Positions 1 to 44,748 of a stretch of DNA of 64,000 nt are shown piece by piece (positions within the stretch are counted from its first letter, which is position 1; the number at the start of each line of letters is the position of its first letter). Source of the DNA: Lutjanus erythropterus. Lineage: Eukaryota; Chordata; Actinopteri; Lutjaniformes; Lutjanidae. The notes below the pieces were generated by a model, which was not told the origin of the DNA, did not search any database, and saw only the letters and a list, made by a program, of their open reading frames with translations. The stretch spans positions 38,969,947 through 39,033,946 of the forward strand of contig CM034603.1 of assembly GCA_020091685.1 (NCBI GenBank), in the 5' to 3' direction. The position numbers and the translations under genes were made by a program.

Positions 1-1321
1 AAAAACAAAAACACTAAATGTCGTCCTGAACTGAGAAAAGATTAGAAAAGAGAAGCTGTCACTCAGGAGTTTTGTCTAACGAGGTCCCTGAACGGGATCC
101 ATCTGTCCGTCCTGACCTGGAAGCTGATTGGCTGAGCAGCTGACAGACCTGACGAGCGCCTGCAGGTAAGAAACTAGATGACTTGAAACAGATTCAGCAC
201 ACAAGTAGTTATTGATGAAAACCAGAGACTTTACAAACAGACCCATATTTTTTCTACAGTAAGGATGAAATATATAATAATAGTAAAAACGTGTTGATTC
301 TTTTCTTATATTTCCAAACATTTGTCAATAAAAACAAGCGTCTCACTTCATTTGATTCAAGGACAGCAGAAAAATGTTGCCTGCTGATTCAGTGAGTTTT
401 TTCTTTCTTATTTTATTTGATATTTTATGTGATCAGGTCCATTCTGTGAGGCAGCAGCTTCATGTAGTTGGTGTCTTCAGCAGGAGGACCAGAAAACCTG
501 CAGCTGACGGCGCCGCTGCACACGTCCATGTCTGTGTGGACATGTATTAACAGCTCCCTCAGATGCCACTGAGCAATTCACAGTTTTAACTGACAGGTTT
601 TTTTTTGTCTGACATGATAACTAGCCGCTGCAGGACAAACAGGACAAACAGGACCTGTCCTCGTCCTCCTTCACTGGTGAGAGTCCAGCTGTTCTGTGTT
701 TAACATTTTTCAACAATATATGGGAAAAAAAAGACAGTAAAGCTCAAAAACATTCTGTAGTTTGAGTTTAGAGTCGAATCAAACCACAGAATGAGTCGTG
801 TTGTTGATGTAAATATGAAAATATGTTCAGACATCAGATCAAAATGAATCCAGTCGAATTTAAAACAACAGCAGCTTTATTTTCTCCGTCCAACAGAAAT
901 GTGTGACTGTCTCCATCCTGTCCTAATCAGGAAGAGGACGTGTCACAAAACACGGCTGAGACATGTTGTGAAAGAACTGTGGACACGTCCAGAGAACGTT
1001 TCAACAGTCTTTACTGCAGTACAAGTACACAGTACTTAAAAGCAGAAGTACTGATTCAACTTGTTTACTGCAGTAAAAGTGGAAAAAGGTCAGTCCTCAA
1101 AGCACAGAAGTAAAAAGTTGTCCTTTTGTCTTTGACTTGTTATGTCTTTTATGGATTTTTATTTGTCTTGTTTTTACATCTTTTTACATCTGTACGTCTT
1201 TTTTGTCTCATTAGATCTTTTTCATCGTGTTACTTTATGTCCAGCTCATTAAAGAGCATAACAAAGAAGGAATGAGTCATTTATTAAAGGAAACTCAACA
1301 TGGATTAAGTAAGTGATCAGT

Positions 1322-1364
<43 letters not shown>

Positions 1365-1631
1365 ACATGGGTGTGTGTGTAAAAGGCAACCAAAGCTGAA
1401 CTACATGCAGTCCTCCAATGAGGAGGGAGCAAACAGAGAGAGTCTGCAGGGACAAATCAGGACAAATTATAGCTTCATACAAACTATATAAAGTAAATAC
1501 AAATTAAGGCATTAAGAATATAATAAATAATGAACTAATAAATAACTAAATACAAATAAAGCTTAAAACAATAGTGATTTCAAAATCTGATGAGAAATTA
1601 TTCTTTTAATCTAAGTAAAGCAGAATAATAC
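1..1631. other. Gene-free upstream stretch
   Basis: No coding exon could be supported here. The stretch is AT-rich non-coding DNA with one (GT)n tract at about 1323-1363. It would be expected to lie between lamc1 and lamc2 if the vertebrate gene order holds, but no lamc1 exon is visible. Splice-like strings such as CTGCAG followed by GTAAGA near 164 are not backed by an open frame. The 8 bases AATAATAC at 1624-1631 are the left target duplication of the hAT element that follows. Confidence 0.5.
1323..1363. repeat. (GT)n microsatellite
   Basis: About 20 uninterrupted GT units, followed by a short second GT run near 1371-1380. Ordinary dinucleotide microsatellite. Confidence 0.9.
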
Positions 1632-2515
1632 TAGACTTGCACCGATTTCAACTTTCTTAGCCGATTCCGATTTCCGATTTTTGAGGGGTCTGACCTACCG
1701 ATTCCGATTTTGGCCGGTTCCGATTTTCAGTCTTTCTAAGAACTGTAATTGACAGCATTCACAAACATTTTTGCAACTTTTCTTGTAAATATGTTCATAA
1801 TAAGACACTGACTATTAAATATTCATTTAATACTTTCTCCAAAATCATCCAGATTACAACCAGGCCTTATTATAATTTTATATTAAGATTATGAATTGGG
1901 TGAACGTGATCTCGCGAGATCATGTCGCGGGATTTCGTGGGACGCGATTTCACGTGATCTTTTGTGGAAAGATGTAAACAAACCGGAGACTAACGCGGTG
2001 CAACAGTTTGAAGTAAAACTTTGCCGTGAGAAAAACAGACACAGAAGTTAAAGGAGTCTGGATGAGAAAATGTTTGAGGAGACGCATCAACACAGGTTGT
2101 TTATTCTTCAGCCAGAACAGGAGGTGAGATTTGAACTGTCCCTCTGTGAACAGCAGTCTGCTGCTAGCTTGCTAGCATTAGCCTGAAGTGCGAGAGAGTT
2201 TACGGCTGTTTTGCGACATTGTCAGCTGCTCTGTCTCGTTGTAGACTGTCTGTCTTCTCTTTATCCTGTTCTTGGAATCTGTCTCTGACACCAGCTTCAA
2301 GCAGACGTGTGTCTGAGTGTGTAGCTGTTATCAGCGCTGTGTTGACGTCACGGTCAGTTTGTCTGCTGCGCGCATGACGTGACCATCGTGCAGAACATGT
2401 GTGTGACAATGACGGACACAGAACCGGATTTGTGACGCTGACCGGCCGGTCACCGGTCAAGGCGGTCACGTGAAAACTGGCCCGATTCGAGCATTGCCGA
2501 ATCGGTGCAAGTCTA
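1632..2515 (+). mobile_element. Non-autonomous hAT-type MITE, copy 1
   Basis: An 884-bp element bounded by a perfect 16-bp terminal inverted repeat, TAGACTTGCACCGATT at the left and its reverse complement at the right. It is flanked by an exact 8-bp target duplication, AATAATAC at 1624-1631 and 2516-2523. Eight-base duplications with TAG...TGCACCGAT-like ends are typical of the hAT superfamily. Subterminal copies of a GATTCCGATT-like motif lie just inside the ends. No transposase is encoded; the short minus-strand open frame at 2200-2469 is not transposase-like. A near-identical copy in the same orientation lies at 34024-34910. The interior is CpG-rich and holds TCTCGCGAGA at 1910-1919, CACGTG at 1951-1956 and 2467-2472, and TGACGTCA at 2343-2350. 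Confidence 0.9.
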
Positions 2516-2523
2516 AATAATAC

Positions 2524-2934
2524 AATTTAAATTTGTTCATAAAACAGGAGAATGAATGTTCGTTATCTCTACATTTGTTACACTGGATGTGATATTTGGC
2601 TAAAAATATGACTTGATTTATGAGGGTGGAGTTAGATGGGCCTGAATTATCCATGTAAAATATGATATGAAATACTTATTGAAGGAATATTAAGTTCAAT
2701 AGATAACCAATTTCTGATATTTAATCAAAAATATTGTGAATAATGACATGAAAAGAACAAATGCTTGAGGGTTTCATCATCGAAAACAAACAGTGATGTC
2801 AGGTCTGTGGTCATTACATCATCTTATATCTTTTTGTCTTGTTACACACAAAGAGCACAGCTGTATGGATCAGTGTGTATGATACATACAGAAAAATTAT
2901 GCATCTTTTAAATACAGAAACTGTGGAGAAACAT
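2524..2934. other. Unremarkable spacer between MITE and minisatellite
   Basis: AT-rich single-copy-looking sequence, except for the 8-bp hAT duplication at its left edge. I see no gene or repeat in it. Confidence 0.4.
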
Positions 2935-5900
2935 GACTTCTTCTGCTGTCACTGCGTTGTGTTCGCTGCCCTCTGCTGTCACTGCGTTGTGTTCGCTGCC
3001 CTCTGCTGTCACTGCGTTGTGTTCGCTGCCCTCTGCTGTCACTGCGTTGTGTTCGCCTCTCTGCTGTCACTGCGTTGTGTTCGCTGCCCTCTGCTGTCAC
3101 TGTGTTGTGTTACTGCCCTCTGCTGTCACTGTGTTGTGTTATTGCCCTCTGCTGTCACTGCGTTGTGTTCGCTGCCCTCTGCTGTCACTGCGTTGTGTTC
3201 GCTGCCCTCTGCTGTCACTGCGCTTGTGTTTGCTGCCCTCTGCTGTCACCGCGCCGTTACTGCCCCTGCTGTCACCGTTGTGTTACTGCCCCTGCTGTCA
3301 CTGTGTTGTGTTATTGCCCTCTGCTGTCACCGCGTTGTGTTCTGCCCTCTGCTGTCACTGCGCGTGTGTTCGCTGCTTCTGCTGTCACTGCCCTCTGCTG
3401 TCACTGCGCTGTGTTACTGCCCCTGCTGTCACTGTCCTCTGCTGTCACCGCTGTGTTACTGCCCTCTCGCTGTCACTGTCCTCTGCTGTCACTGTGTTGT
3501 GTTACTGCCCTCTGCTGTCACTGCGGCGTGTTCACTGCCCTCTGCTGTCACTGCGTCGTGTTCGCTGTTCGCGCCCTCTGCTGTCACTGTGTTGTTTTCG
3601 CTGCCCTCTGCTGTCACTGTGTTGTGTTACTGCCCTCTGCTGTCACTGCGCCGTGTTACTGCCCTCTGCTGTCACTGTGTTCTGTTACTGCCTCTGCTGT
3701 CACTGTGTCGTGTTCGCTGTTCGCCGCTCTGCTGTCACTGTGTTGTTTTCGCTGCCCTCTGCTGTCACTGCGTGTGTTACTGCCCTCTGCTCACCGCGTC
3801 GCGTTCGCTGTTCGCTGCCCTCTGCTGTCACTGTGTTGTGTTTGCTGCCCTCTGCTGTCACTGCGCCGTGTTACTGCCCTCTGCTGTCACTGTGTTGTGC
3901 GTTGTGCCCTCTGCTGTCACTGCGTTGTGTTCGCTGCCCTCTGCTGTCACCGCGCTGTGTTCGCTGCCCTCTGCTGTCACTGCGTTGTGTTCGCTGCTCC
4001 CTGCTGTCACTGCGTTGTGTTACTGCCCTCTCGCTGTCACTGTGTTGTGTTATTGCTCCTCTGCTGTCACTGCGCTTGTGTTCGCTGCCCTCTGCTGTCA
4101 CTGCGTTGTGTTCGCTGCCCTCTGCTGTCACTGGGCGTTGTGTTCGCTGCCCTCTGCTGTCACTGCGCTGTGTTACTGCCCTCTCCGCTGTCACTGTCCT
4201 CTGCTGTCACCGTGTTGCGTTACTGCCCTCTGCTGTCACCGCGTCGTGTTCACTGCCCTCTGCTGTCACTGCGTCGTGGTTCGCTGTTCGCTGCCCTCTG
4301 CTGTCACTGTGTTGTTTTCGCTGCCCTCTGCTGTCACCGCAGTTACTGCCCTCTGCTACCGCGCCGTGTTACTGCCCCTCTGCTGTCACTGTGTTGTGTT
4401 ACTGCCTCTGCTGTCACTGTGTCGTGCTTCGCTGTCCGCCGCCTCTGCTGTCACTGTGTTGTTTTCGCTGCCTCTGCTGTCACTGCGCTTGTGTTACTGC
4501 CCTCTGCTGTCACTGCGCTGCGGTCACTGCCCTCTGCTGTCACTGCGCTCGTGTTCACTGCCCTCTGCTGTCACCCGCGCGTGTTCGCTGTTCGCTGCCC
4601 TCTGCTGTCACTGTGTTGTTTTCGGCTGCCCTCTGCTGTCACTGTGTTGTGTTACTGCCCTCTGCTGTCACCGCGTCGTTACTGCCCTCTGCTGTCACTG
4701 TGTTCTGTTACTGCCCTCTGCTGTCACTGTGTCGTGTTCGCTGTTCGCCTCTGCTGTCACTGTGTTGTTTCGCTGCCCTCTGCTGTCACTGCGCTTGTGT
4801 TACTGCCCTCTGCTGTCACCGCGCGTGTTACTGCCCTCTGCTGTCACTGCCAGTTCGGGCTGTTCGCCCTCTGCTGTCACTGTGTTGTGTTTGCTGCCTC
4901 TGCTGTCACTGCGCGTGTTACTGCCCTCTGCTGTCACTGTGTTGTGTTATTGCCCTCTGCTGTCACTGCGTTGTGTTCCGCTGCCCTCTGCTGTCACTGC
5001 GCTGTGTTCGCTGCCCTCTGCTGTCACTGCGCTTGTGTTCTGCCCTCTGCTGTCACCGCGCTGTGTTACTGCCCCTGCTGTCACTGTGTTGTGTTATTGC
5101 CCTCTGCTGTCACTGCGCTTGTGTTCGCTGCCCTCTGCTGTCACTGCGTTGTGTCTGCTGCCCGCTGTCACTGCGTTGTGTTCGCTGCCCTCTGCTGTCA
5201 CTGCGCGTTGTGTTACTGCCCTCTGCTGTCACTGTCCTCTGCTGTCACTGTGTTGTGTTACTGCCCTCTGCTGTCACCGCGTCAGGTTCACTGCCCTCTG
5301 CTGTCACTGCGTCAGTGTTCGCTGTTCGCTGCCCCTGCTGTCACTGTGTTGTTTTCGCTTCGCTGTCACTGCGTTGTGTTACTGCCCTCTGCTGTCACTG
5401 CGCCGTGTTACTGCCCTCTGCTGTCACTGTGTTGTGTTACTGCCCTCTGCTGTCACTGTGTCGCGGTTCGCTGTTCGCCGCCTCTGCTGTCACTGTGTTG
5501 TTTTCGCTGCCCTCTGCTGTCACTGCGCTGTGTTACTGCCTCTGCTGTCACCGCGTCGTTACTGCTCCTCTGCTGTCACTGCGTCGTATTGTTCGCTGTT
5601 CGCTGCCCTCTGCTGTCACTGTGTTGTGTTTGCTGCCCTCTGCTGTCAGCGCCGTGTTACTGCCCTCTGCTGTCACTGCTCGTGTTACTGCTCCTCTCTG
5701 CTGTCACTGCGCCGTTCCTGTTCGCTGCCCTCTGCTGTCACTGTGTTGTTTTCGCTGCCTGCTGTCACTGCGTCGCGGTTCGCTGTTCTGCTCCCGCTGT
5801 CACTGTGTTGTGTTTGCTGCCCTCTGCTGTCACTGCGCCGGTTACTGCCCCTGCTGTCACTGTGTTGTGTTATTGCCCTCTGCTGTCACGCGCTTGTGTT

Positions 5901-8900
5901 CGCTGCCCTCGCTGTCACTGCGCTGTGTTCGCTGCCCCTGCTGTCACTGCGCTGTGTTCGCTGCCCTCTGCTGTCACCGCGCTTGTGTTACTGCCCTCTG
6001 CTGTCACTGTGTTGTGTTATTGCCCTCTGCTGTCACTGCGTTGTGTTCGCTGCCCTGCTGTCACTGCATTGTGTTCGCTGCCTCTGCTGTCACTGCGCTT
6101 GTGTTCGCTGCCTCTGCTGTCACCGCGCTTGTGTTACTGCCCTCGCTGTCACTGTCCTCTGCTGTCACTGTGTTGTGTTACTGCCTCTGCTGTCACTGCG
6201 CGTGTTCACTGCCTCTGCTGTCACTCGCGCTGCCTGTTCGCTGCCCTCTGCTGTCACTGTGTTGTTTTCGCTGCCCTCTGCTGTCACTGCGCTGTGTTAC
6301 TGCCCTCTGCTGTCACTGCGTCGTGTTACTGCCCTCTGCTGTCACTGTGTTGTGTTACTGCCCTCTGCTGTCACTGTGTCGTGTTCGCTGTTCGCCCTCT
6401 GCTGTCACTGTGTTGTTTTCGCTGCCTCTGCTGTCACTGCGTTGTGTTACTGCCCTCTGCTGTCACCGCGCTGTTACTGCCCTCTGCTGTCACTGCGCCG
6501 TGTTCTGCTCCGCTGCCTCTGCTGTCACTGTGTTGTGTTTGCTGCCCTCTGCTGTCACCGCGCCGTGTTACTGCCCTCTGCTGTCACTGCGCCGTGTTAC
6601 TGCCCTCTGCTGTCACTGCGCTCAGGTTCGCTGTTCGCTGCCCTCTGCTGTCACTGTGTTGTTTTCGCTGCCCGCTGCTGTCACTGCGCGTGCCCGCTGT
6701 TCGCCCTCTGCTGTCACTGTGCGTTGTTCGCTGCCCTCTGCTGTCACTGAGCGCCGTGTTACTGCCTCTGCTGTCACTGTGTTGTGCTATTGCCCTCTGC
6801 TGTCACTGCGCTTGTGTTACTGCCTCTGCTGTCACTGCGCCGTGTTACTGCTCCTCTGCTGTCACTGCGTCGTTCGCTGTTCGCCCTGCTGTCACTGTGT
6901 TGTGTTTGCTGCCTCTGCTGTCACTGGGCGCCGTGTTACTGCCCTCTGCTGTCACCGCGCCGTGTTACTGCCCTCTGCTGTCACTGCGCCGTGTTCGCTG
7001 TTCGCTGCCCCTGCTGTCACTGTGTTGTGTTATTGCTCCCCTCTGCTGTCACCGCGCTGTGTTACTGCCCTCTGCTGTCACTGCCGTGTTACTGCCCTCT
7101 GCTGTCACCGCGCCGGTTCGCTGTCTTCGCGCCCTCTGCTGTCACTGTGTTGTTTTCGCTGCCCTCTGCTGTCACTGCGCTGTGTTACTGCCCTCTGCTG
7201 TCAATCCCTGCTGTCACTGCGCTTGTGTTACTGCCTCTGCTGTCACTGTCCTCTGCTGTCACTGTGTTGTTTTCGCTGCCCGCTGTCACTGCGTCGTTTC
7301 GCTGTTCGCTGCCCTCTGCTGTCACTGGGCGTCGGTTCGCTGTTCGCTGCCCTCTGTTGTCACTGTTGTGTTTGCTGCCCTCTGCTGTCACTCGTGTTAC
7401 TGCCCTCTGCTGTCACTGCGCCGTGTTACTGCCCTCTGCTGTCACTGCGTCGTGTTCGCTGTTCGCTGCTCTGCTGTCACTGTGTTGTTTCGCTGCCCTC
7501 TGCTGTCACTGTGTTGTGTTACTGCCCGCTGTCACTGCGCTTGTGTTCGCTGCCCTCTGCTGTCACTGTGTTGTGTCTACTGCCCTCTGCTGTCACTGCG
7601 TCGTGTTACTGCCCTCTGCTGTCACTGGCGTCGTGTTCTGCCCTCTGCTGTCACTGCGTCGTGTTCGCCCTCTGCTGTCACTGCGCCGTGTTACTGCCCT
7701 CTCTGCTGTCACTGCGCCGTGTTACTGCCCTCTGCTGTCACCGCGCCGCGGTTACTGCCCTCTGCTGTCACTTCGCGCCGTGTTCGCTGTTCGCTGCCCT
7801 CTGCTGTCACTGTGTTGTGTTTGCTGCCTCTGCTGTCACCGCGCCGTGTTACTGCCCTCTGCTGTCACTGCGCCAGTGTTACTGCTCCTCGCTGTCACTG
7901 CGCTGGTTCGCTGTTCGCTGCCCCTGCTGTCACTGTGTTGTGTTTGCTGCCCTCTGCTGTCACTGCGCGGTTACTGCCCTCTGCTGTCACTGCCGTAGTT
8001 ACTGCCCTCTGCTGTCACCGCGCGGTCACTGCCCTCTGCTGTCACTGTGTCGTGCGGTTCGCTGTTCGCTGCTCTCTGCTGTCACTGCGTCGTGCCGCTG
8101 CTCCCGCTGTCACTGCGCTGTGTTCGCTGCCCCCGCTGTCACTGCGCCGTGTTCGCTGCCCTCTGCTGTCACTCGCGCCGTGTTCGCTGTTCGCGCTCTC
8201 TGCTGTCACTGTAAGGTTTTCGCAGTTCCTGCTGTCACTGGCGCTTGTGTTCGCTGCCCTCTGCTGTCACTGCGCTCAGGTTCGCTGCCCTCTGCTGTCA
8301 CTGCATTGTGTTCGCTGCCCTCTGCTGTCACTCGCGCGTGTTCGCTGCCCTCTGCTGTCACTGCATTGTGTTCGCCTCTGCTGTCACTGTGTCGTGTTCG
8401 CTGTTCGCTGCTCTCTGCTGTCACTGCATTGTGTTCGCTGCCCTCTGCTGTCACTGCGTCGGTTCGCTGCCCTCTGCTGTCACTGCGCCGTGTTCGCTGC
8501 CCTCTGCTGTCACTGTGTCGTGTGCTGTTCGCTGCTCTCTGCTGTCACTGCATTGTGTTCGCTGCCTCTGCTGTCACTGGCGTCGTGTTCGCTGCCTCTG
8601 CTGTCACTGCATTGTGTTCGCTGCCCCCGCTGTCACTGCGTTGTGTTCGCTGCCCTCTGCTGTCACTGCGCCGTGTTCGCTGTTCTGCCCTCTGCTGTCA
8701 CTGCGCCGTGTTCGCTGTTCGCTGCCCTCTGCTGTCACTGTGTTGTTTTCGCTGCCCCTCTGCTGTCACTGCGTTGTGTTCGCTGCCCTCTGCTGTCACT
8801 GCGTTGTGTTCGCTGCCCTCTGCTGTCACTCGCGTTGTGTTCGCCCTCTGCTGTCACTGCGTTGTGTTACTGCCTCTGCTGTCACTGTCCTCTGCTGTCA

Positions 8901-9112
8901 CTGTGTTGTGTTACTGCCCTCTGCTGTCACTGCGTCGCGGTTCGCTGCCCTCTGCTGTCACCGCGCCGTTCGCTGTTCGCTGCCCTCTGCTGTCACTGCG
9001 CTGTGTTACTGCCCTCTGCTGTCACTGTGTTGTGTTCACTGCCCTCTGCTGTCACTGCGTTGTGTTCGCTGCCCTCTGCTGTCACTGTGTTGTGTTCACT
9101 GCCCTCTGCTGA
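2935..9112 (+). repeat. Large GC-rich minisatellite with higher-order organisation
   Basis: About 6.2 kb made of roughly 200 tandem monomers of about 29-30 bp. Each monomer has a constant core CTGCTGTCACTG followed by a variable tail of two main kinds, ending in TTCGCTGCC or TTACTGCC. The plus strand is strikingly poor in A, usually one or two per monomer. Consequently stop codons are almost absent from all three forward frames, which gives open frames of about 1300, 2060 and 2020 codons over the same DNA. These read as degenerate decapeptide repeats like AVTALCSLPS and are not regarded as genes. A marker monomer containing GTTGTTTTCG recurs at about 150-bp spacing, and whole blocks recur at roughly 0.9-1.0 kb (see findings). 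Monomers differ by many one- to few-base indels as well as substitutions. Confidence 0.95.
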
Positions 9113-9259
9113 AATAAATAAGTAAATGTCCTGACAGTGAGTGAAATATCTCAGCTGTGTGTGTCTCACTACAGTAGTTGAGTAAATGTACTCAGTTACA
9201 CTGATATTGTGTCTGAAAAGTGAACTCAGTGTTGAGAAATGCTCTCAGATGTTGATAAC

Positions 9260-9262
<3 letters not shown>

Positions 9263-9323
<61 letters not shown>
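9263..9323. repeat. (GT)n microsatellite
   Basis: About 30 GT units. It is followed to 9540 by several shorter GT-rich runs, so the whole 9263-9540 stretch is low complexity. No gene is supported in it. Confidence 0.9.
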
Positions 9324-9324
<1 letters not shown>

Positions 9325-9621
9325 CAGGGTGTGGTGTTGACAAGGTAACAGGAACGAGCCGGGTGTGGCTCTATGTGTGTGTGTGTGTTGAGGCTTGCGG
9401 CGGTGTTTTCTGGAGCTCAGTGGTGGGAAAGTGTTGGTAAGGTGTGTGTGTGTGTAACCAGGTATGGGCAGGGTGTGTGTGACGGATCATAATGTGTGTG
9501 TGTGTGTGAGTAACAGTGAGTGTGTGTGTGTGTCTGAGGTTCAGGGTGTGTCTGGCTGCTCTGTCAGAACTACAGCCTCAGGATACAGTTTACAAATGGA
9601 GACAATCCTCAGCAGGAAGAA

Positions 9622-9622
<1 letters not shown>

Positions 9623-9673
<51 letters not shown>
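9623..9673. repeat. (CA)n microsatellite
   Basis: About 25 CA units. Together with the GT tract at 9263-9323 it forms an inverted pair of complementary dinucleotide repeats separated by about 300 bp. Confidence 0.9.
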
Positions 9674-9678
<5 letters not shown>

Positions 9679-9899
9679 ATTGTCAGTGTACAATCACATA
9701 TTTCACCTGAGTAATAAAATTAGTTCATATTTCAAATGGATTTCATAACTGCTGAATAATCATAAAGAAATCTTACTTTTTACTCCATTTATTTAGTAAC
9801 TTTAGTTACTTTTCAGATTAAGATTAATGATACAAACTGTCCTGATCTACAAAGGAAACTTTAGTTTTGTCAATAATCAATCAGTGTCATATTTTATCA

Positions 9900-10200
9900 G
9901 AAAAGGTTTGAGGGTTTTGAATATTTGAGGACGTCGTCTTAAACTTTGATCTACATTTTCTGACATTTTGTGGATCAAACAACTGATCGATTAGGAAAAT
10001 TGGACCTGTTTTTCAAGAAGTGATCAATCTGGAAATAAATATGTGAAAACAATTGGACACAGGATGTATGTCCATACACATACATCCTGTGTCCACTATT
10101 TTTCAACTGAAAAGATTCTGACAGGATTAATTAATCAGTTAATCAATTTGAGTTATTTTTAGTTATTGATTGATGGAGAAAATGATCAAGAAAGATTTGA
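9900..10200 (+). repeat. Fragment of an AATCGATTA-type teleost MITE family
   Basis: The segment carries blocks such as TGAGGACGTCGTCTT, TTTCTGACATTTTGTGG and ACTGATCGATTAG. The same blocks recur at 13250-13930, 26115-26440, 27500-27600, 35996-36175, 51015-51150, 51484-51680 and 61150-61400 in both orientations. The recurrence is visible directly; a MITE origin is inferred from the family being dispersed and non-coding. A perfect short hairpin at 10054-10095 is embedded in this fragment. Confidence 0.6.
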
Positions 10201-10833
10201 AAAATAGGTCCAAATGTGAGCAGGTGAAGCACACAGATAAATATATTTATATTTATTAACTTCTTTTACGTCGTTTCGTTTTGTTACGTCTTTAATAACG
10301 TTGTTTCTGTCCTGAGTTAAAACTAAAGTAAAAGTTTGTGTTTTTGAAAACGTAAGGAGGAGGAAGTTCAAATGTAGAAAAATAAATACTCAGATACTTG
10401 AAAAGTCTACTGTAATATAGTAACTATGTATTTGTACTAAGTTACTTCCCATCTCTGCTTCTTAAATGTGTATTGGTTCATTTCAAATACTAAAACTCTT
10501 TAAGTTGCTTCATCACTTCCAGCATTAATGACCACTTTTGATGCTTTATAACAGCTAATAAACATGAATAGTGATCTGATAAGTTGTTATGATGTTTTAT
10601 TGTCCTCATCAGCCTGTTGAGGTTGAAGTCTGCTGAGCAGCAGACATCATCATCTTCATCATCTTCATCAGTCTAAATCAGAATCTGAATTATAATATTT
10701 TCCATTTGTGGAACAGAGTGAGGATTCACTTCACGTCCGTCCATCTGATCCTCGTCTCTGTCCTGTGAAACGTCTTTGTGTGATGAAAACGTCCCAGTAA
10801 ACGTCCAGAACAGAACAACGCCCCGGCTGTCCT

Positions 10834-10835
<2 letters not shown>

Positions 10836-10877
<42 letters not shown>
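10836..10877. repeat. (CA)n microsatellite upstream of lamc2
   Basis: About 20 CA units, lying about 170 bp upstream of the lamc2 start codon and so close to its probable promoter. Confidence 0.9.
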
Positions 10878-10879
<2 letters not shown>

Positions 10880-10973
10880 CATGTCCTCTGACTGTGTGTG
10901 TGCTCTGTGAATCACATGTGAGTAAGTGTGTCTCAGTATGTGCAGCGTGTTCAGACCTGCAGCAGCAGAGGAG

Positions 10974-10980
10974 TTAAAAG
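10974..10980 (+). promoter_or_regulatory. Possible TATA-like box of lamc2
   Basis: TTAAAAG lies about 67-73 bp upstream of the lamc2 ATG. If used, transcription would begin around 11005 and give a leader of about 40 bases. This is a position- and composition-based guess; no transcript evidence is available. Confidence 0.3.
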
Positions 10981-11046
10981 GAGACACTCTGAGGAGTCGG
11001 ATCAGTTTTAGTTACAGATCTGATTTGTTCAGGATTCACACTCGAC

Positions 11047-14000
11047 ATGAAGAACAGCTGGATTTCACTCTGCAGCCTCCTGGCTGCACTTTCTGCCGTC
11101 CAGGCCACCTACACATACTACTGTAAGTACCTGAACGCCACACACTTCTTCTTCTTCTCTTCTTCTTCTTCTTCTTCACACACATCTGCTATCACCTGAG
11201 CTTAAACACACTGATGCTTTTTACACAAAACTGCTTTTTTATTTAAGAATGAATTCAATGTTTCAGAGTGGAGACAGTTTCTACTGCCTCAGATTTCACC
11301 AGAGAGCAAAATCCTTTAATTACACTCCTCAAACTTCTCCTCAAAATCATCAGATTATGATGAAAACTGAATATTATCCTTCATAAACTAAAGTTACCCT
11401 CTAAATGTTATTTATTCTCTTCAAATGTAAAATTATAACAGTTTAAGTCAATATTCAAAGATGTTCTGTCAAAGTTCTAACTTTTAAAATAAAAAAAAAT
11501 GAAATACTGAGTCAAAATTATGGTTTTTACAGTACGTTGAAATAATGAGACAGCAAACCAAAATTTGTTTTTTTTAAAATTTTATTATATTTATATATTA
11601 TGATGAAAGAGAAGTGCATGTAGTAAGATAAGGAGGAAACTGAATTTTATCTTTTCTCTTTCATTCACCTTCACAGTATTAATTTAGAGCTTGTGACTGG
11701 GATTTAATGTGATCAAATACTCATCATCAGTCATGATTATATAACAGTAAGTCAAGATTAGAATTGTTTAAGTCAAGATTAAAAGATGCTCGGTCAAAGT
11801 TTTAACTTTTCATCCATCCATTCATTTTCTGTAATCGCTTATTCTGTAAGGGTCGCAGGGGGTGGAGTCTATCCCAGCTGACACTGGGTGAGAGGCGGGG
11901 TTCACTCTGGACAAGTCGCCAGTTCATCACAGGACTGACACACAGAGACAGACGACCACTGACACTCACACTCACACCTACAGACAATTTAGAGTCACCA
12001 GTTAACCTGCATGCATGTGTTTGGACTGTGGGAGGAAGCCGGAGAACCCGGAGAGAACCCACGCAGACATGGGGAGAACATGCAAACTCCACACAGAAAG
12101 GCCCTGATCCAGCAAGTTTTAACTTTTGAAATAAAAAATTAAACTTTTTAAGTCAAAACTTTGAAATATTGAGTCAAAGTTCAGCCTTTTTATTGTGTTT
12201 ATGGTGAGATTGAAGGAGCTCAGCAGCATCTTTATTCGTCTGTGATGCTTTTTGGACAAAACTGCTTTTTTTATTTAACAATGAATTCAATATTTCAGAG
12301 CTGAGACTGTTTTATACTCAAAACTCAAACTCAAACACTCAAACTTCTCTTAAAATCATCAGATTATGATGAAAACTGAATTTTATCCTTCATAAACTTC
12401 AGTTACGCTCTAAATGTTATTTATTCTGTTTCATTTATTAATTAAGAGGCTGTGACTGAGTTTTAATGTGAATAAATATTTGAAGTATTCTGATCTCTCT
12501 GGTTCTGTTTGTTGGATTTGTTACATAATCAATGAAAGAAAAAAGTTGTTTTTGATAATTCGTGAATCGTTCCAGTCACATTTTCTGCTTGCAGCTTCTT
12601 AAACATGAGGATTTTTAAAAAACCTTTCATCTATTTTTCAAGTCTTTCCTGTTACGGTTATTTTCTTTATTGATTAATCTGAAATCTGACTCATGAACTT
12701 ATTTTAAAGAGTTTAGTTTGATAGACTGCTCATTTTTAATCTTTTTCATTTTCAAATTGAATCAATTGTATTGATTTCTTCAAATTCTGTTTGCTTTGTC
12801 TGTTTGATGACAGAGAACAATAATGATTATTATTTTTTATTATAGAAGGTTAACAGCAGAAAATGTTTCATGATAAAAAAGTTTTTTTAGGGTCGAACCC
12901 ATAAAATTTAACTTAAGACGAGTAAAAATACCTTAAAGTTGAAATAAATGAAAATGACACAATTCGGTTGTTTGTGACGAGACTTCAGCTGCTCCGTGAA
13001 GCAGGGAGGCGCCCGCAGGTGAGGCTGCAGCCGCCGCCCTGCTCTCACCTGTGGAGGAGGCGAGGCCTGAACCTGAGCCGCCTCCCCCCTCAGGGAGGGA
13101 CGACTTACTGCAGTCCTGATGTTTACCTGCGCAGGTGAAAACACCTGGGAACATGATCCAGGTGTTCTTGATCTGGAGAGGAGATCATGATAAATATCTC
13201 AGCTTTTAATACATTTAAACTGAAGGATTTAAAACGAAAAAAGCATGAAGTTTTCAACATTTTGACTTTTAAAACTAATCAATTAGTGGAGAAAATGATC
13301 AATAGATTGATCGATAATGAAAGTAATCGTTACAGGAAAGACTTGAAAAATGGGTCTTAATGTTTGTTTCATCTGTTTCGTTGTTTTTGTTTTGTCTTTT
13401 ACGTGTTTCTCACCTTCTTTCATTGTTTACATCTTGTTACGTCTTTGATCTTGTTTTTGTTTTGTTACGTTTTCTTTGGGGAATTTTAAAATTTTAATGA
13501 CAGGACCAAACAAAACTTTTCCATTTACTGAAAGTCTTTGGGCTGTTGACAAAACAAGTTATTGATTAATAATGAAAATATTTAACAGATTGATTGATAA
13601 TAAATATAATCAATACACGAACGTGTTTCTCGTGCTCCACGTGTTTGAACCTATTTGACAGAATTAATTAATCGATAAATCACTTTGAATCGTTTTTGTA
13701 AAGACAGAAAATGTAAAAATTCTCTGATTTCAGCTTCTTAAATGTGAATATTTTCTGATTTCTGACAGTAAACTGAATATCTTTGAGTGGTGGACAAAAA
13801 CAAGACATTTGAGGACGTCGTCTTGGACTTTGAACAACACTTTCTGACATTTTATTGATGAAAAAAACTAATTGATTAGTGGTAAAATGATTGCCAGATT
13901 GATCACCAACTGAAAAAAACCAGTTGTGTAGTGGTTTCACTGGTCTGATCCACTGAGTTTGACAGGTTGATTTATTGGTAGCTCTTCATACGCTGCTTTG

Positions 14001-17000
14001 TTTTTGTCTGTTTACCATCTTCTTTTTAAATTTGTCACATTAATTTTCTGTCTCAGCCTGTGATGTAAGAACCAACAGTTTGTGGGCGTGGCTTAGTTTC
14101 CTCGGGGGTCAAACCTCCTCAGGTGTTTGCAGTTGCTCCCTCCTGTGTTGTATTATTATTATTATTATTATTATTACTATTATTATTATTATTATTATTA
14201 TTATTACATATTTTTACAGTGTTCAGGGAGTAATCCTCTCAGACACACACGTGTCAGAAACCGTCTTATAAAAGCCACAGCAGCTGAGCTCATCGCCAGC
14301 GGCGACGCTCAGACGAACATTAACTGCGATCACAGAGTGAGTCACAGTGAATCACAGGCTGACTGAGCTCAGGTGAACTTCGTCCCGACTGGCTGACACA
14401 CCTCAAACTCACCTCACACACCCTCTCAGCACTTACATCAGTCTGGGTCAGCAGTGGATTGTAATCAAGTACTTTTACTCAAGTACTTCAGTACAAAATC
14501 AAGGAAACTTTAGTTGAGTATCTCCATGTTCAGAGGCAAATATAACATTTTTACTCGATTACATTTGTCTGAAGAGCAGCTCTGTGGTGTTCCTTCTTTT
14601 ACTTCAGTAAAGGTTCTGAATACTTTCTGGTCTAAATACATCAGCAGTACAACAGTCACGTTTAACTCAGGATTAAAACTTTAAAAAGTTGTTTTTAGAC
14701 GAAGCTGTTTCAGGATGAAGCCGCTCTTACAGATGTTGTCTGCTGTCATGTTTTTTATATCACAGGGACTCTGAGAGGCTGCTGACGTCCTCATGAATCC
14801 ACCACTATTTTATTTTAATTCAAAACTCTTAATCCAGATCAGAATGATCCCAAAATGATTAACTCTCAGATTTGGGTTTTTCAAAACCAGGACATGTGAT
14901 CCTGATCCTTCAGAACTGAGATCTGGTAATCCAGCCCTCCACAGAATCCAGATCAGATGTTATTTTTGGACATTTCAAAACTTTAAGGTGGAAATTTTCA
15001 GAGTTTTGATGCTAAAAATCAGGATTATCGTGATCCTGGTGGAGGGTGGATTCATCCTGGATCCAGGGCTCATGGGATGTTTTTAATCATTATTATTTTT
15101 CTTTATATTCTTTATATTTCTATTCTAAATAAAACAAGTAACCAACAAACTGACATTTTCAATTAAAACACTAAAAAAGAAACTCCAAGCTGCTGTTGTG
15201 TAAAAATGTGTTGGTGCAAAAACAAGAATTTCACCTTTGTTCCTCCAAAAATGCAGCGTGGTTCTCACCTGCATGGAGTTTAAAGGACGCAGCGTTCCTC
15301 ACTGCAGAGGAGAACATGATCAGAGTTACTGAGGATCTTCTGATCAAGACAAACAGCAGCACCTCCCAACATTTTCACACATCTGTTTTAATGAAAAACA
15401 GACAGAGGCCCATCTAAAGACTGCAGATCCAGACTCTGTAATCCTGATCCTGTGGTATCTGGATTAGAACGATTTAATCTGAAAATTCTTTGAGAAACCA
15501 GGACAAAACCTACGAGATCCCGTCAACCACAATAGCAAAAGAAAAAAAAAGGGATTACAAAATGTGGATCATTTTGATTTAGATGAAAAGTTTTGACGTA
15601 CTGACCCCAGGCCTGATGAATATGACACTCAGATCCTCCTAAATGAATCCATTTCAGTCCAAAAAGACGTCTGCCTCCACCTGTCTGTCTTTATGTAACC
15701 TCACTACTAAACTCTGCTCACGGGTGTGAAGTTTCCTGTCGTTGCCAACAGCAGCAACAAGCAGCAGCCTGTTGAAACTGTCAGGATTTAAAATGGCGCT
15801 TTAATGCAGCGGGTCAGAAAAAATCTCATCAGATGTCTCTGTGATGATCTGTGGGACGTCTCGTCACACGAGGCGTTGTCTGCTCTGGGTGGGACTCTGT
15901 GGAGTCTGAGGATTTGTCTGCAGGGCTTCAGACTGGGAGGTGCAGTTCTCTGTGGGATTTCAGAACAAACCACAGAACATAGAACAGCCTTCACCCTCTG
16001 TAAACATCCGTGACGCTTTCCAGGAAAAGAAAAACTCTGTCAGTCTGTGTAACACAGCTCCCCACTGAATCCCACTGATTTTAATCACAGATGGGAAGTA
16101 ACTAAGTACAAATACTTAGTTACTGTACTTCAGTAGAGTTTTCAGGTTTCTTTACTTGAGTATTTACTTTTCCACATTTGAAGATAAATGTCTGAACTTT
16201 GTCCTCGTCACGTTGTATCCATCAAAATCGACACAAAAGAGGAAACAAGACATCAAATATATCGCAAGATGAAAAGATGTAACAAAACAACAAGACAACA
16301 AAGACACATAAAATGTAACGAGACAAAAAAGAAGCAAAAGACTTGAAGCAAACTACATAAAAGACACAAAAGACGTATTAGGATAACAAAGATGTAACAA
16401 GACAAAACAATACAAAAAAGACACAACGAGGCACCACAGACAAAGACGTCGCCTTTTTACTTTACTTACATTTCAGAAATTGTATTTTTTTAACTTTTAC
16501 TGCAGTAAATAAGTTGAATCAGTACTTCTACTTTTACTCAAGTATATCTGTACTCGTACTTGAGTACAGAATGTTTGTGCTTCTGTCACCTCTGATCTGA
16601 ATCACCTTCTGATGTTTCCTCGGGAAAATTTCCACTATTAAACAAAATAAACTTGGACTTTTTTTCTGTGTCCTCCCACAGCGATGGTACGCTGCGACTG
16701 TAACGGGAGATCTCGGTACTGCCTTCGGGATGCCTGGGGTCTGCACTGCGTCGACTGTCAGGGAAACACTGAGGGCCGCCACTGCGAGCGCTGCAAGACC
16801 GGCTTCTACATGCAGGGGGCGGGACTGAGCTGCACGCCCTGCCGCTGCAACCTCACCGGTGAGAAACCACAACATACAGCTTTCCTTACATCTCAACTAA
16901 ACAAACGCTTCAGTTTTGTTACCAATGTGTTTCTTTCCCTGCAGGTTCTGTCAGTGCCACATGTGACAGCAGGGGGCGCTGCAGCTGTAAAGAAGGCATC

Positions 17001-19713: not shown

Positions 19714-21127
19714 TCCATTAATCATCATCCAGTTTCAGCTTCTCTGATTCAGATTTCTGTGCAAATGGAAATGTTGCAGTGAAATAAATGTTTGTTAATT
19801 AGCTATTTATTCTCACTGACAGCTTCATTTTAGATGTAAAGGTCAAAAAACAGAAGAAAAGGTTCAATATTTTGGATGAATTTGGTTCAATCTGATCGTC
19901 ACAGTGGATTTATGGATTTATGTCCTTGTTTGTATGAAGTTATTCCAACACTTTCACCATATTTGTGTTTGACAGCTGTTATAGCGCCACTATAAACAGC
20001 TGAACTTATTAACCCTTTCCTCTCTTTCTTCTTTTTGTGGAGCAGCATGTGACTGTGACGTTCAGGGCTCCGAGTCCAGACAGTGTGACAGTTCTGGTCG
20101 CTGTCGGTGCAGACCGGGCTTCGAGGGTCTGAGGTGCCAACGGTCCAACTGTCCCGCCTGTTTCAGCCCCATCAAATTAAAGGTATAGCTGAGAGGACAA
20201 TTTAAAGCTTCTACAGGGAGTTTTATTTTTAGATTTTGTTATATTTAAGCTCAGTTTATTTTCAGCCACACCGACAACAGTTGTAAATTATTTTCTTAAC
20301 TAACTACCTGTGTTTCAGATGGAGGCTTACGCTGCCAAACTGAAGGAGCTGGAGAGACTGTTCTCAAACGTGGATGGAGGTCTGAAACCAGCCAACAGCG
20401 CCAAGATGGAGGCGGAGCTGAGAGCCACAGAGACGCTGGTGGAGGATCTGCAGGATGATGCCAAGCGGCTCGCAGGTGAGACAACACGGTCACGGTGAAA
20501 CGTTTCCCTCAGAGATCTGTCACTAAACATACGATGAATAAATGACTCGTCTGATGTCACACCCCTGGTATCCAACAGGGTCGGAGAAGAACCTGCAGGG
20601 TCGTCTGTCGTCCATCAGCAGGAGCCAGCTGGCTGAAGGTCAGGACATCCAGAACATCGCCGACACCGCTGATGACATCAAACAACTACAGCAGACATAC
20701 AGGACGAAGGTGGAGGAGGTCCAGACCCTGATAGAGGAGATGAAACGCAAACTGAACAAAGCCAAGACTGACATCAGATCAGCTGTAAGACCTGAGGGTG
20801 ATGTACTTGTCACCGTATGAACATATAATCAGAATGTCCAAGAATTTAAAGGAGCAGGCCGCAGGCTTTATATCTGCTACACTGACAGCAAATACAGAAA
20901 CATTTATCAAACCACAGCGACAGTTTGTAGATTTTAATCTCTGCTTTTATGTTGAAACTTATCTGAGGAGACTCTGGATGATGGTGATGATGATGATAAT
21001 GATGATGGCGATGATGATGATGATGATGATGGCGATGATGATGATGGTGATGGTGATGGTGATGATGATGATAATGATAATGATGATGGTGATGATGATG
21101 ATAATGATAATGATGATGGTGATGATG

Positions 21128-21186
<59 letters not shown>

Positions 21187-24100
21187 GGTGATGATGATGA
21201 TGCACCTGTTTGTCTCTTCCTTCCTGTTAGGAGGTTCCTCTTGGAGATGCTCCGCTAGGTCCAAACTTCCTGTCCTCTCTGGTGCAGACAGCTTCCAGTC
21301 TGGCTGATCAGTAAGTCCTGATCATTTATTGAGTTATTGATGAATTGATAAATGCTCCCATCACACTGTGTGAGACGCATGTGTCTTATTTCCTGTTTGT
21401 CCGTCCTGCAGACATCAGACAAAGGCAGATGCTGTGGAGCGAAGCGCCACCGCCGCCCTGAGTGACTCGGAGAAGAGTCTGGATCTGGTCCGAAATCTCA
21501 TGAACAGAGAGAACAAAGTCAAAGAGCTGATCGGAGATCTGAAGACCATGTAAGTCACTTCTGTCTGTTTTTCTTAATCTGATGATGGCAGTAACGCAGG
21601 AATTTGACATCTCACTTTCCTCTGATCTCAACTGAGAAATGCACATGTGCAGTAATGATCAGCACTTTCTCTGGCCATGCTAGCATTGTTAGCGTCCACC
21701 TGAGTCTGGCTGGACCAGGATGGAACAGACAGGGAGTACAGTACTGAGGTGGTTTTCTTGCTGGAGCTGTCAACTAATTAGGTGGCAAGCTCCACAGCTA
21801 ACCAAGCTAACTAGCTAATGGCAGCTACAGATAACAGCAGAGAGCAGTAAAACTACTTTAGCAACAAGTAAACAAGCTAAGAGCTATCTGTCATCTGCTA
21901 AACTCTGTAAGCTAAGTTGGTATTGTACTCTACTGGCCTCATGACATTTAATGACATGTTTATGACAAGTCCGAATGTGTTTACTTGAGGTCAAGGAAAA
22001 TATTCATGACACACTCATAACACTGTCTCACTGTCAAAATCAGCCACATATGACTGTTTAATGTCATGTAAACAAAAAGCTAAACAGCTTCTTTAAACTT
22101 GATAATGTCAAGTTGTTATAACAAAGACATCTCAAACAATTTCAACTTTGCATTAAGAGTGACATAACTGACCAAATATCACTTAATGACAACAGTTATA
22201 AACATTCACGAAGACTTATGACAGTCTTATGCACATTTTTGAAAAGGAAAAGACCCAACTGACAAAAACTCAGCTGCAAAAAACCCCAAAGAACTCTGCA
22301 TGTCATGGCTGAGTGCCCCAGATGTGTTCTGTGCTGCGACGTTCTCTCAGACGAGTGTTTAAAATGGTCAAAACTTCAGTATCATTTAAAACAAAAACAC
22401 CCAACAAAGCAGAAGATTCTGGATTTTTAAAGACATCTTGTAAGCTAATGTTGGAACGTGGAAACGCTTGGGAACTCTAAACTAATGATGTTCATGTGTG
22501 TTCAGGTACGACCAGACTTCAGCCCAGGTGAAGGGTCTGGAGAACCAGGCGACCCGGCTGAGCAGTGAGGCCAAGGACGAGAGCAAAATGGCGGACGGCA
22601 TGCTGAAAGACATCGCCAGCATGGAACAAAGCATCCCATCATCCCTGAAGGTAACTGCTGCTGTCACAACAAGGAGCCGTGACTTTAGGAAACATTACTA
22701 TTAAGTACGTTCTCATTCTGTGAAGTCTCTAATCTCTCTGATATCCCATCATGCTCAGGAGGGGGTGGACGCCATGTTCGCCAGGTTGGGCGGTCTCAAG
22801 CAGGCAGTGGAGGGGGACATCTCAGGCTTTGAGGCACTGCAGGACAGTGTGCAGCGAGACATGGCTGCCACTGAGGACCTGCTGGCCAAGGGGAAGATCG
22901 CCCAGCAGGTACTGAAGGATTATGGGAATCCAAACATTTAAATACATCGTTCATTTTGTGAATTTGCCACCTTGGATAACTTAGTATCCTGTTAGAAAAT
23001 AAGCAGATAACTTGCTAGCTGGGGGATAGCTGACCAGCTGGCAAGCCAGCCAGCTTGGTGAGCTATTTTGGCTGACTGCCCAATATGTTACCGTGCTAGC
23101 TAGCATGTTAGCGGTTTGCTTTCCAGCTACAGTAGCACTAGTCTGACTCACCAGCTGTAGACTGTGGGTAGAGATGGGTTTCTGGTGCGCACATTCAGGG
23201 GCAAAATGACTTTGATACAAAAGATTGTAGTCCACAGTTGTAATCAACATACATTTTGCATGGTTTTGTAAATCCTTGTTGACTCAGTGATAAAAGTTTC
23301 AGAGTTTTAGAGTTGAGTCTAAAATCTTACAACAACAACCTCTGAACGAGCAGTCTGTGTTGATAATAGTATGAACGTTAACAAGCTAGCAGCTTCTCTT
23401 ATGTCAGCTGTTTAAATATCAGTGTTCACATCTCCACATGCAAAGTCGTCACTATGCCAATGAGATTTGTAAGAACACACAAATAAAGTCCTTTCAGACA
23501 CTTCATGTGATTATTTGGCACAAAGTTCAACCATAACATGAACAATTTTGATGAAAAACAGCAAATCAGCAAATTGAGGCACAAAGAAGAAATAAGTAGA
23601 ATAAAAATCATCTAATTTTTCTCATACAGACCGTAGAAGTAAAAACACAGACCTGGCCCACGTCTGGTCTTAGTTGAATGTTGATGTGGTTCATCTCTGC
23701 AGGGTTTTGACAAGCTGCTGGACAGAGTCAACGTCGCCAAGGCCGACACCGAAGGCGCTCTGCAACGCATCAACAGCAACACCAACGAGCTGGATGACGC
23801 CCTGAACACCCTGAAAGGTAGAGACACTGACTGACTCTGTTTTCTCTGAAATCAAACTAAAAGCACTGGACTGAACGTGACTCCTCGTCCTCTCCGCAGG
23901 GTTTGATCAACAGATCGACAGCAGCAAAGCTCTGGCTGACGCTGCCATCAAGCGCCTTCCTGGCATCAACGCCACCATCCAGCAGGCTGTCAGCAACAAC
24001 GGTGAGACACTGTCCATCCTGGGAGACGTGACTAATAATTATGACAACGCGCTGGGAACCATCAATGTGCTGGAGAACCTGGTCAACAGTCTGGAGGTAA

Positions 24101-27271: not shown

Positions 27272-27493
27272 GAGAAAAATGACTGTAAAGTTTTCTTGTT
27301 GTTGCAGACAGATAATTGTATATGTGTCAGTTTTATATCTTTATATCAGGTTATTGTTTCTACATATTGATCCTGACCTCTGATTTGACCTTTGACCTTA
27401 TTTGGAAGTTCCTGTATTCTGCCTTTGCAGAGCGAACCAAAAAATATTGGGTCATACCAAAAAATATTGGGTCATACCAAAGCAAAAGGCAGA
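27272..27493 (+). repeat. Dispersed repeat carrying a 20-bp tandem, copy with 2 units
   Basis: About 220 bp nearly identical to 38895-39162. It ends with two units of ACCAAAAAATATTGGGTCAT enclosed between TTCTGCCTTTGC and its near-complement GCAAAAGGCAGAA, so the tandem sits in the loop of a potential stem. The other copy carries four units. I do not recognise the family. Confidence 0.75.
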
Positions 27494-42500: not shown

Positions 42501-44748
42501 CTTTTATTCCTCTGTCATGTCTGTTCTTTGCTTAATGCTGTCTGTGTTCTCCTTTTACTGGAATTAGCATTTAGCCTTTAGAGCTTGTTTCTTACTTCTC
42601 AATTTTTATATTAAGAATATAATATACACTGTCCCTGAGAAATAGATAAATAAATAAATTACAACATTAGTAGTTTTATTGGTGTTGATTTGTTGTTTGT
42701 TGATTTTTCTGGTTTTGTCTCTTTTTGCCTTAAATCTGATTATAAATCGATTATGATGTAATGTTCACTATATGGACTCCAGGAGGAGTCGCTCTGTATT
42801 GGCTAAAGTGGATCAAAATAAATAAATGAACAAACAAACAAATAAATCAATAAAAAGCGTCCAAATAAAAAGTGTCCAAATAATTATCATTATCATTAAT
42901 TATCCTCTTAATTATGTAAAGCCATTTGTGTCAAACAGTTGTATCAGTGCCTGTGAATATTCTCATTCATCCAGGTCATAGTTTTCTTAAGGGATTAAAT
43001 CGATCGCAACTGGACTGGTAAAATTGTCTTAGAAGACGTTTCGCCTCTCATCCGAGCAGGCTTCATCAGTTCATGCTCATCAGACTAGATAGGACAGCTC
43101 TAGTCTGATGAATAGTAGTTGGACTTCAATTATTTATCCTCTAAGAGAGGCCGCCTCCAGACCAAGAATGGTTTCACTCCCTATTGTGAGGCCTAACGAC
43201 AGTCGTTTGGGTTGAGTGGGGTGAAACCCCAGTGAGCCAACAACCGTCGTTGGGGGGGTCTCACTCGTTAGTGTTCCATTCTGTTCTAACGATGGTCGTT
43301 AGAGGCACCTGGAGCCAGGTTGTATCAGTCTGAGACGTGTCTTCTTCTGCCCTCTGGTGGATCATTACTTCACTGCAGGCAGCAGCTGGTCTGTCAGGGC
43401 AAAATCCAACATGGCTGCCTTTACATATTTTGGCAAAATAAATAAAAAGAAGAAGTTATAGAAAGAGTAAATATTTTTATTTCAATAATATAAATATTTA
43501 TTATATTGAAACAGCCTCTAACTACTTGATATTTTGTTGATTGTTTTATAGTTAGATCAGGTTTAAAATGTGTGAATCAAATATGATAGAGTAGATATTT
43601 ATCTGTGACTCACTTCTCTATTCATATTAGTATTATTACACAACAATAACTAAAACACTGCCAAATAAACTCAATTAAATTTCAGATGTCACCTGAAGAT
43701 AAATTCAGTGGAAATTTAGATATTTAATGTGTTTTTTACAGACACAACCTGCTCTCATTATAATCACTGGGATGTTTTTAATTGATTTTCACTCAAAAAC
43801 AATTGCTTGATTACCATAATTGTATGTTATATTGATCAGTTCAGATTTATATTGATTATATTGTTTTGTTTTTATCACAAGGTGAAATAAAATAGTCTCC
43901 AAACTAAGAAAAATGTGACAAATTTTCCAAAAGCAATGAATAATATTTGTTTTTGTTAGTTTCTGTTAATTAAAACATGATTGTGATCAATGAAATCTCA
44001 TAAACGTATCAAAAGTGTCAAAATAGCACAAATGTAAACGATGTAGAAAAATATATTTTGTCAAATGGTCCAATAAACACTTCAGGTTTTAAAGCAGCAT
44101 CACAGTTCAGTTAGATGCTGAAGTAAATCATTACATAATTCTGATGACTAAGATAAGATGGTTGTGTTTCTGAGGCTCGATATGATCCAAACATCTGTAC
44201 AAACATCTGTAAAGTGTGTGTGACGGTGGATTAGAGGCAGCAGAAATCTTTCATTTGTCTCTGTGAATAATTCATCTGCTGCTGGTTTAATAACCGCAGC
44301 TCCTCCGGCTCTCATCAGGCCGGTTAGTGACGCAGGAAGGCCGGCCACCACCTGCGGCCTCCCCCGCTGCTGGAGCCCCGCTGCCTGCGTGTCTGTCAGT
44401 CTGTCTGTCCCACATCGTGTCCGTGCATCGTGTCTGTAGACGTGTGCGGACCGTCAGGGGGAACCGACGCTTCGTTTCTGCGCCACACGCCGCGAGGCCT
44501 GCATTCATTCCCGTGTTTTTGACGTCATAACCCGTTTCAGACCGCGCTGAGTTGCGTTGGACTGTCCTCTTACTGTGTGACGATTGTGTGTTTGTTTGTG
44601 TTGTGTGTGTGTAACCTGCTGTTTCCTGCTGGATGACGAGCCGTCGCCCCTTTCAGCACCGCCCTGCTGGACAGCGACACGCGCCTCACACCAAACCCCT
44701 TTTACCTCCGATGATGAGATGATGTTGTTCTGAGAGATCTTCATCTTC

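Follow-up and report, generated by a model that had tools for sequence, protein, structure and literature searches.

Minisatellites born inside transposable elements are an already known kind, with published cases from Alu, B1, MaLR and soybean Gmr9 (PMC6947457) and a human census (PMC3389668). These two sources also describe seed-repeat birth: PMC6947457 recounts the Haber-Louis model, in which short flanking repeats serve as seeds, and the slipped-strand model expects an incomplete terminal unit (PMC3389668). DNA transposons, too, have given rise to tandem repeats, the Tetris satellite being one (PMC4079207). Among tandem units reported to bind CTCF are the LPR and STin2 VNTRs of SLC6A4 (PMC2848977), the VNTR of SVA, which binds CTCF/BORIS (PMC5007689), and the macrosatellite DXZ4, with CTCF-bound units (PMC6985041) of 3 kb (PMC3218863).

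The array described here lies in the window (the whole stretch of 64,000 nucleotides analysed, C13:38969947-39033946) of a Lutjanus erythropterus genome of 938 Mb in 444 contigs. It is very probably a minisatellite that arose within part of a hAT-like non-autonomous transposon, whose copies are dispersed in the genome, and grew by block duplication near lamc2. Founder sequence, seed direct repeats and single-copy relatives all occur in one genome, which makes the birth of a minisatellite readable, and the order of its variants can be taken as a record of block duplications.

The array and its surroundings

The following features define the locus (positions in the window):

2942..9111, plus strand: minisatellite array, ~207 monomers of ~30 bp (TRF and segmentation)
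9105..9111, plus strand: incomplete terminal unit TCTGCTG, read from the sequence and identical to the source element's left seed repeat
11047..11122, plus strand: predicted laminin exon 1, signal-peptide-like, whose donor is in the right phase to join the exon at 16682
16682..16858, plus strand: first exon with a laminin EGF domain (Pfam EGF_LMN_ATRN 5.4e-9, EGF_laminin 5e-7; splice sites read)

The array spans ~6 kb at 0.69 Mb from the end of the 39.67-Mb contig C13 and has a GC content of 0.593, a CpG observed/expected ratio of 0.72 and only ~5% A on its plus strand (316/6,178). TRF gave the unit TCTGCTGTCACTGCGTTGTGTTCGCTGCCC in two rows, 2942-8887 (period 30, 198.4 copies, 76% matches, 14% indels) and 8882-9111 (period 30, 7.5 copies). 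With a TRF period of 30 and 207 monomers, it consists of head-to-tail units of ~10-100 bp at one locus, as a minisatellite should.

That the array adjoins a laminin gene is borne out by EGF domains from 16682 and a Laminin_B match that follows them on the plus strand at ~17793. The name lamc2 comes from the first-pass annotation and presumably holds, fitting the domain layout. Its placing of the array 2 kb from this gene agrees with the predicted exon 1 (one of two candidates in a scan of 1-16600), which starts ~1.9 kb from the array end. Some 5.2 kb upstream of the array, an EF-Tu domain 2 match on the minus strand (E 1.4e-8) probably marks an eef1a-like gene or pseudogene. The literature match found for lamc2 together with a minisatellite concerns, by its title, mouse retrotransposon insertions, and we claim no absence from print.

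Six minisatellite arrays of >=150 bp (nine TRF rows) lie within the 20 kb that precede the window, and the end of contig C13 (L014:9183-9712) carries an 11-bp minisatellite, GTCACTGCTGT, which shares words with the array unit; doubled TTAGGG or CCCTAA does not occur in the last 9.7 kb of C13. A 20-bp tandem unit, ACCAAAAAATATTGGGTCAT, is present both at 27436-27481 and at 39060-39145, 11.6 kb apart, and these two tandems are perhaps internal repeats of one transposon family.

Nested order of the monomers

Earlier reading of the letters alone had proposed a three-level order in the array, of ~30 bp, ~150 bp and 0.9-1.0 kb. All 16 of the marker positions on which this rested proved exact, the spacing of ~150 bp recurs (147-157 bp in 6/15 successive intervals), and the marker offsets of 913/915/913 and 1024/1022/1037 follow from the exact positions. 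A further point, that the TCACCGCG variant stands at matching places, was true in part: the copies at 5544 and 6459 are in register, but those at 5270 and 6551 face another monomer in the opposite block. Distances between repeated 16-mers (10-bp bins) were most often 30, 120, 910 and 1030 bp, the 150 bin being sixth.

For a test of order the array was cut into 207 monomers, whose types were set from monomer sequence after the array had been read and of which 2/207 remained untyped. Local self-alignment of monomers pairs 78 of them between 3485-5940 and 4506-6858 with a best score of 46.7, where 100 permutations of monomer order averaged 10.6 and peaked at 17.0; the order is thus not random. 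The level of four to five monomers is best described as a phrase, in which type A or D is followed by one to four e/B/J and closed by the long type H. There are 16 such phrases, 93-157 bp long (mean 2.3 and maximum 9 in 10,000 shuffles). The word s-B-J-H opens four super-units (at 3469, 4187, 5225 and 6145) and occurred at most once in any of 10,000 shuffles. All four super-units lie on the plus strand, with the following monomer types:

3469..4186, plus strand: super-unit 1, 718 bp, 24 monomers, sBJHABeBHAeHDe?fffeCfffe
4187..5224, plus strand: super-unit 2, 1038 bp, 35 monomers, sBJHAeeBHAeJJHABeBHAeeHDeCfffeCfffe
5225..6144, plus strand: super-unit 3, 920 bp, 31 monomers, sBJHAeeBHAeeHDeeHAHDeCfffeCfKfe
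6145..7238 (or 7196; the end is unsharp), plus strand: super-unit 4, ~1050-1094 bp, sBJHAeeBHAeeHDeeHAHfeCeeHDeeHCeeHAe, then a short s-e pair

Because the super-unit lengths differ, a rigid-lag test was weak: lag 67 alone stood out (its value being reached at any lag in 13/2,000 permutations), and lags 4, 5, 31 and 36, with z ~1.9-2.5, stayed below the multi-lag null. Strict periodicity was therefore set aside and the claim recast as local block order. On the evidence of 16-mer distances, permuted self-alignments, typed super-units and phrase counts, the nested levels are real and not due to chance, yet they are not strictly periodic.

Similarity between blocks follows the same register. Identity is 96.4% without and 90.6% with gaps for 4187-4475 vs 5225-5515, 97.6% and 89.1% for 5225-5795 vs 6145-6709, and 96.4-98.2% and 89.1-92.5% across all six in-register block pairs, vs a mean of 76.6% and a maximum of 85.6% (with gaps) in 47 out-of-register pairs. 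This order fits repeated, irregular duplication of multi-monomer blocks. A nested period was also found in at least two of seven other arrays (>=200 bp, period >=10), namely 22/174 bp and 16/62 bp, in comparison arrays drawn from 144 kb of sequence mostly near this locus, which are not a fair sample of the minisatellite background:

L012:4107-4708 (C13:38.95-38.97 Mb): minisatellite of 22-bp unit, longer period 174 bp
L011:2790-3157 (C13:38.95-38.97 Mb): minisatellite of 16-bp unit, longer period 62 bp

Since other nearby arrays are nested too, nesting is not special to this one.

Three other accounts of this intricate order, and of the sequence that carries it, were weighed. It is possible, if less than probable, that sequencing or consensus errors make up part of the apparent complexity, many of the small indels being false and the real array cleaner. 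Indel events outnumber substitutions in the six in-register block pairs (102 vs 54) and gather within 3 bp of CpG (68/102, 32.6 expected) and near CCC (39, 16.2 expected), with only 2 near the GCTGTCAC core (24.1 expected), counts that are not independent as some blocks were used in more than one pair; moreover, TRF indels amount to 14% in the array vs 0-3% in the six arrays (>=150 bp) of the 20 kb that precede the window. This pattern looks like long-read consensus error, to which slippage, itself a source of indels, could contribute; indels of 7-10% are also found in three other arrays (L014, L033 and window 20977-21202). Block order does not depend on the small indels: marker order, monomer types and super-units are defined by substitutions and by length variants of ~7-14 bp. 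The first-pass annotation had further likened the array to centromeric higher-order satellites, a resemblance that holds for the nested order and is not supported beyond it. A centromere-like satellite was rejected, and we find this reading barely credible: the array is one locus of 6 kb, 0.69 Mb from the contig end, gene exons flank the array on both sides, super-unit length is not fixed (718, 1038, 920 and ~1050-1094 bp), in-register blocks are not near-identical (89.1-92.5% with gaps) and the whole window holds no CENP-B box within one mismatch, a box that not all centromeres need. Hardly more probable is a repetitive protein encoded by the open frame of 2,066 residues. This frame and another of 2,062 residues do run open through the array (window 2912-9112, plus strand), but the low A content of the plus strand (~5%) explains such long open frames and leads one to expect that two plus frames are open to the same extent, frequent 1-2 bp indels break the reading frame and Pfam has no match for the 2,066-residue frame; a coding repeat was rejected on the two open frames and the missing Pfam match.

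The dispersed element and the origin of the array

The unit itself is found elsewhere in the genome, as single copies. Its 17-mer core matches exactly at 103 plus-strand places, every one of those listed being in the array, and additionally at one isolated place on C8. With <=3 mismatches the unit has 17 places outside the array; the spelling that the element uses occurs at 124, a figure that counts array copies too, and the reversed-pattern control gave 0 in each case. In a genome-wide search for the unit-unit junction with <=3 mismatches the tandem was found at this locus alone: all 58 places lie in the array, beside one isolated non-tandem place on C8, and no other tandem fell within 3 mismatches of the junction pattern, from which divergent tandems could escape.

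All 17 off-array copies carry one unit each, with no tandem, inside a longer shared sequence. To the left of the unit this shared element can be aligned over as much as ~770 bp, to the right mostly over ~200 bp, though two copies reach 312 and 340 bp there; median identities of aligned copies are 70-85%. In 14/17 copies TCTGCTG and TCTACTG, two 7-mers that differ by one mismatch, lie exactly 30 bp apart, a distance that accounts for both the length and the phase of the array unit. At its two ends the element reads CAGAGGGGAACC and GGTTCACCACTG, which form near inverted repeats. In the three copies where a script located both ends, the flanking 8-mers agreed at 7/8 (L023), 7/8 (L032) and 4/8 (L026) positions, and in copy L029, read by eye, at 8/8; the other 13 copies have one or both ends missing in the stretch tested. 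An 8-bp target-site duplication is a mark of hAT elements. To judge from its ends and from 8-bp duplications compared in four copies, among which L026 (4/8) falls short, the source is classed as a hAT-like non-autonomous DNA transposon.

A piece of this element adjoins the array:

2906..2941, plus strand: remnant of the hAT-like element, directly left of the array (median score 12 vs the 17 element copies)

Among 2,717 random 36-mers from the window no median exceeded 7, a score that the left 36 bp attain or exceed, in register, in 15/17 copies (no match in L027, 0, and L032, -3). By blastn, matches run through the left junction in 17/17 copies, starting at <=2910 in 13/17 and at 2885 in L019. 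No homology was detected for 2701-2900, and the right flank of the array had no match to the element (median -8; null mean -5.4, sd 2.8).

Dispersed single units, an element that adjoins the left side and seed repeats that bound the source unit are the features of a minisatellite born in a transposable element. Slippage or unequal exchange between TCTGCTG and TCTACTG would have doubled the intervening 30 bp, and the tandem may then have grown by slippage, unequal crossing-over or conversion, in steps of single monomers, of 3-5-monomer phrases and of 24-35-monomer blocks, the variant monomers preserving these steps as nested order. The similarity of in-register blocks is observed; the mechanism of exchange we infer from it.

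Several points tell against this origin. As the element was not detected right of the array, its right half must have gone exactly at the seed repeat, a loss that the model does not require. The remnant on the left is only ~36-57 bp long and 2/17 copies are unmatched there. The 32-bp unit stretch of copy L032 (C8:41346626-41346657) recurs without a difference in the array, at 9015-9046 and again at 9075-9106, yet this copy, spelled like the array's last monomers, has a left flank unlike the array's and lacks the right seed repeat, its right seed site reading TCTGCCC. Finally, the array consensus has CpGs where most of the dispersed copies seen have TG, so that the model has to suppose either an ancestor richer in CpG or GC-biased conversion.

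CTCF-like motifs and comparison with known systems

Motifs were scored with a CTCF weight matrix and with the CTCF consensus, CCASYAGRKGGCRS.

2966..9112, minus strand: CTCF-like motif copies, 117 one-mismatch consensus matches

All of these sites are on the minus strand and all but four read ACAGCAGAGGGCAG; none of the 117 matches the consensus exactly, the first core C being replaced in every one. The window holds 123 one-mismatch matches, 6 of them outside the array, where whole-window shuffling leads one to expect 0.66. With the matrix at 7.35 bits the array has 162 minus-strand and 0 plus-strand sites (mean 11.0 and maximum 19 in 100 dinucleotide shuffles of the array); at 12.5 bits it has 136 sites (shuffle maximum 5; 12 in the rest of the window) and at 17 bits 111 (shuffle maximum 1; 6 in the rest). 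The element carries GCCCTCTACTGG, whose complement is the exact consensus in 13/17 copies, and the matrix calls a CTCF-like motif at p<=1e-4 in 16/17 dispersed copies, L032 being the exception. The array motif was thus inherited from the transposon, and the tandem junction altered the motif's end, so that array units carry ACAGCAGAGGGCAG, one base off consensus. The array shows that a transposon's CTCF-like motif can multiply at one place near a promoter.

Elsewhere in the window, exact consensus matches occur at 43347-43360 and 62285-62298, and the best matrix match is at 46596. In the eight columns of the GCTGTCAC core, 8/1,584 cells differ, insertions (11 placed there) aside. Selection on this core is not claimed, as the monomers had been cut by means of the core itself, and variability is highest in columns with CpG-type changes.

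Could the array be a one-directional CTCF cluster that separates lamc2 from the neighbour upstream, as an insulator or loop anchor whose strength is tuned by copy number? The motifs make this conceivable, and we consider it unlikely. The 117 sites on one strand (0.66 expected per window), the matrix counts at 12.5 and 17 bits far above the array-shuffle maxima, the inheritance of the motif (16/17 dispersed copies) and an array end ~1.9 kb before the predicted laminin exon 1 all speak for it. VNTRs that bind CTCF or CTCFL/BORIS have been published (PMC2848977, PMC5007689), and for zebrafish HATN9_DR PMC9341505 gives 647 CTCF-bound sites by ATAC footprinting. On the other side, SVA VNTR probes lost their binding of CTCF and of BORIS when the CpGs were methylated (PMC5007689), and this array is CpG-rich. 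The motif is damaged by the tandem junction, its exact consensus standing in 13/17 dispersed copies and in no array unit. Tandem copying turns any motif of the founding unit into many sites, so that their number is no evidence of selection, and sites 30 bp apart are probably too crowded for full occupancy. Slightly more doubtful still is the specific proposal that an inherited CTCF-like site, multiplied to more than 100 one-directional sites ~1.9 kb upstream of lamc2, would let copy number set insulator strength towards the upstream neighbour. Most likely the array serves no function of its own; should it have an effect, the most plausible one would be occupancy by CTCF-like zinc-finger proteins at the transposon-inherited motif.

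Human MVR-type minisatellites have GC-rich units of ~30 bp, interspersed variants and block duplications. The array, known from one assembly, is like them in all three respects. It shares with centromeric alpha-satellite higher-order repeats (PMC8502840) the recurrence of monomer variants in a longer order, and is unlike them in that size, fixed period, homogeneity and the CENP-B box differ or are absent. Like the SLC6A4 and SVA VNTRs and DXZ4, it is built of units in tandem that each may carry a CTCF or CTCF-like motif; binding is demonstrated there, whereas the array is known from its motif, one base off consensus. Its units are more numerous than the SLC6A4 repeats and about a hundredth of the size of those of DXZ4. 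By description, and in another species, its source is like zebrafish HATN9_DR, a hAT family that supplies CTCF motifs, for which, unlike the hAT-like source here, the consulted part of PMC9341505 reports no array. The closest likeness is to minisatellites born in transposable elements: an internal piece of a dispersed element, bounded by short direct repeats, has expanded at one locus and ends in an incomplete unit. In contrast to the published cases, whose sources in the parts consulted are retroelements, the source here is a hAT-like DNA transposon, and the array comprises ~207 units whose order is preserved over blocks of ~1 kb.
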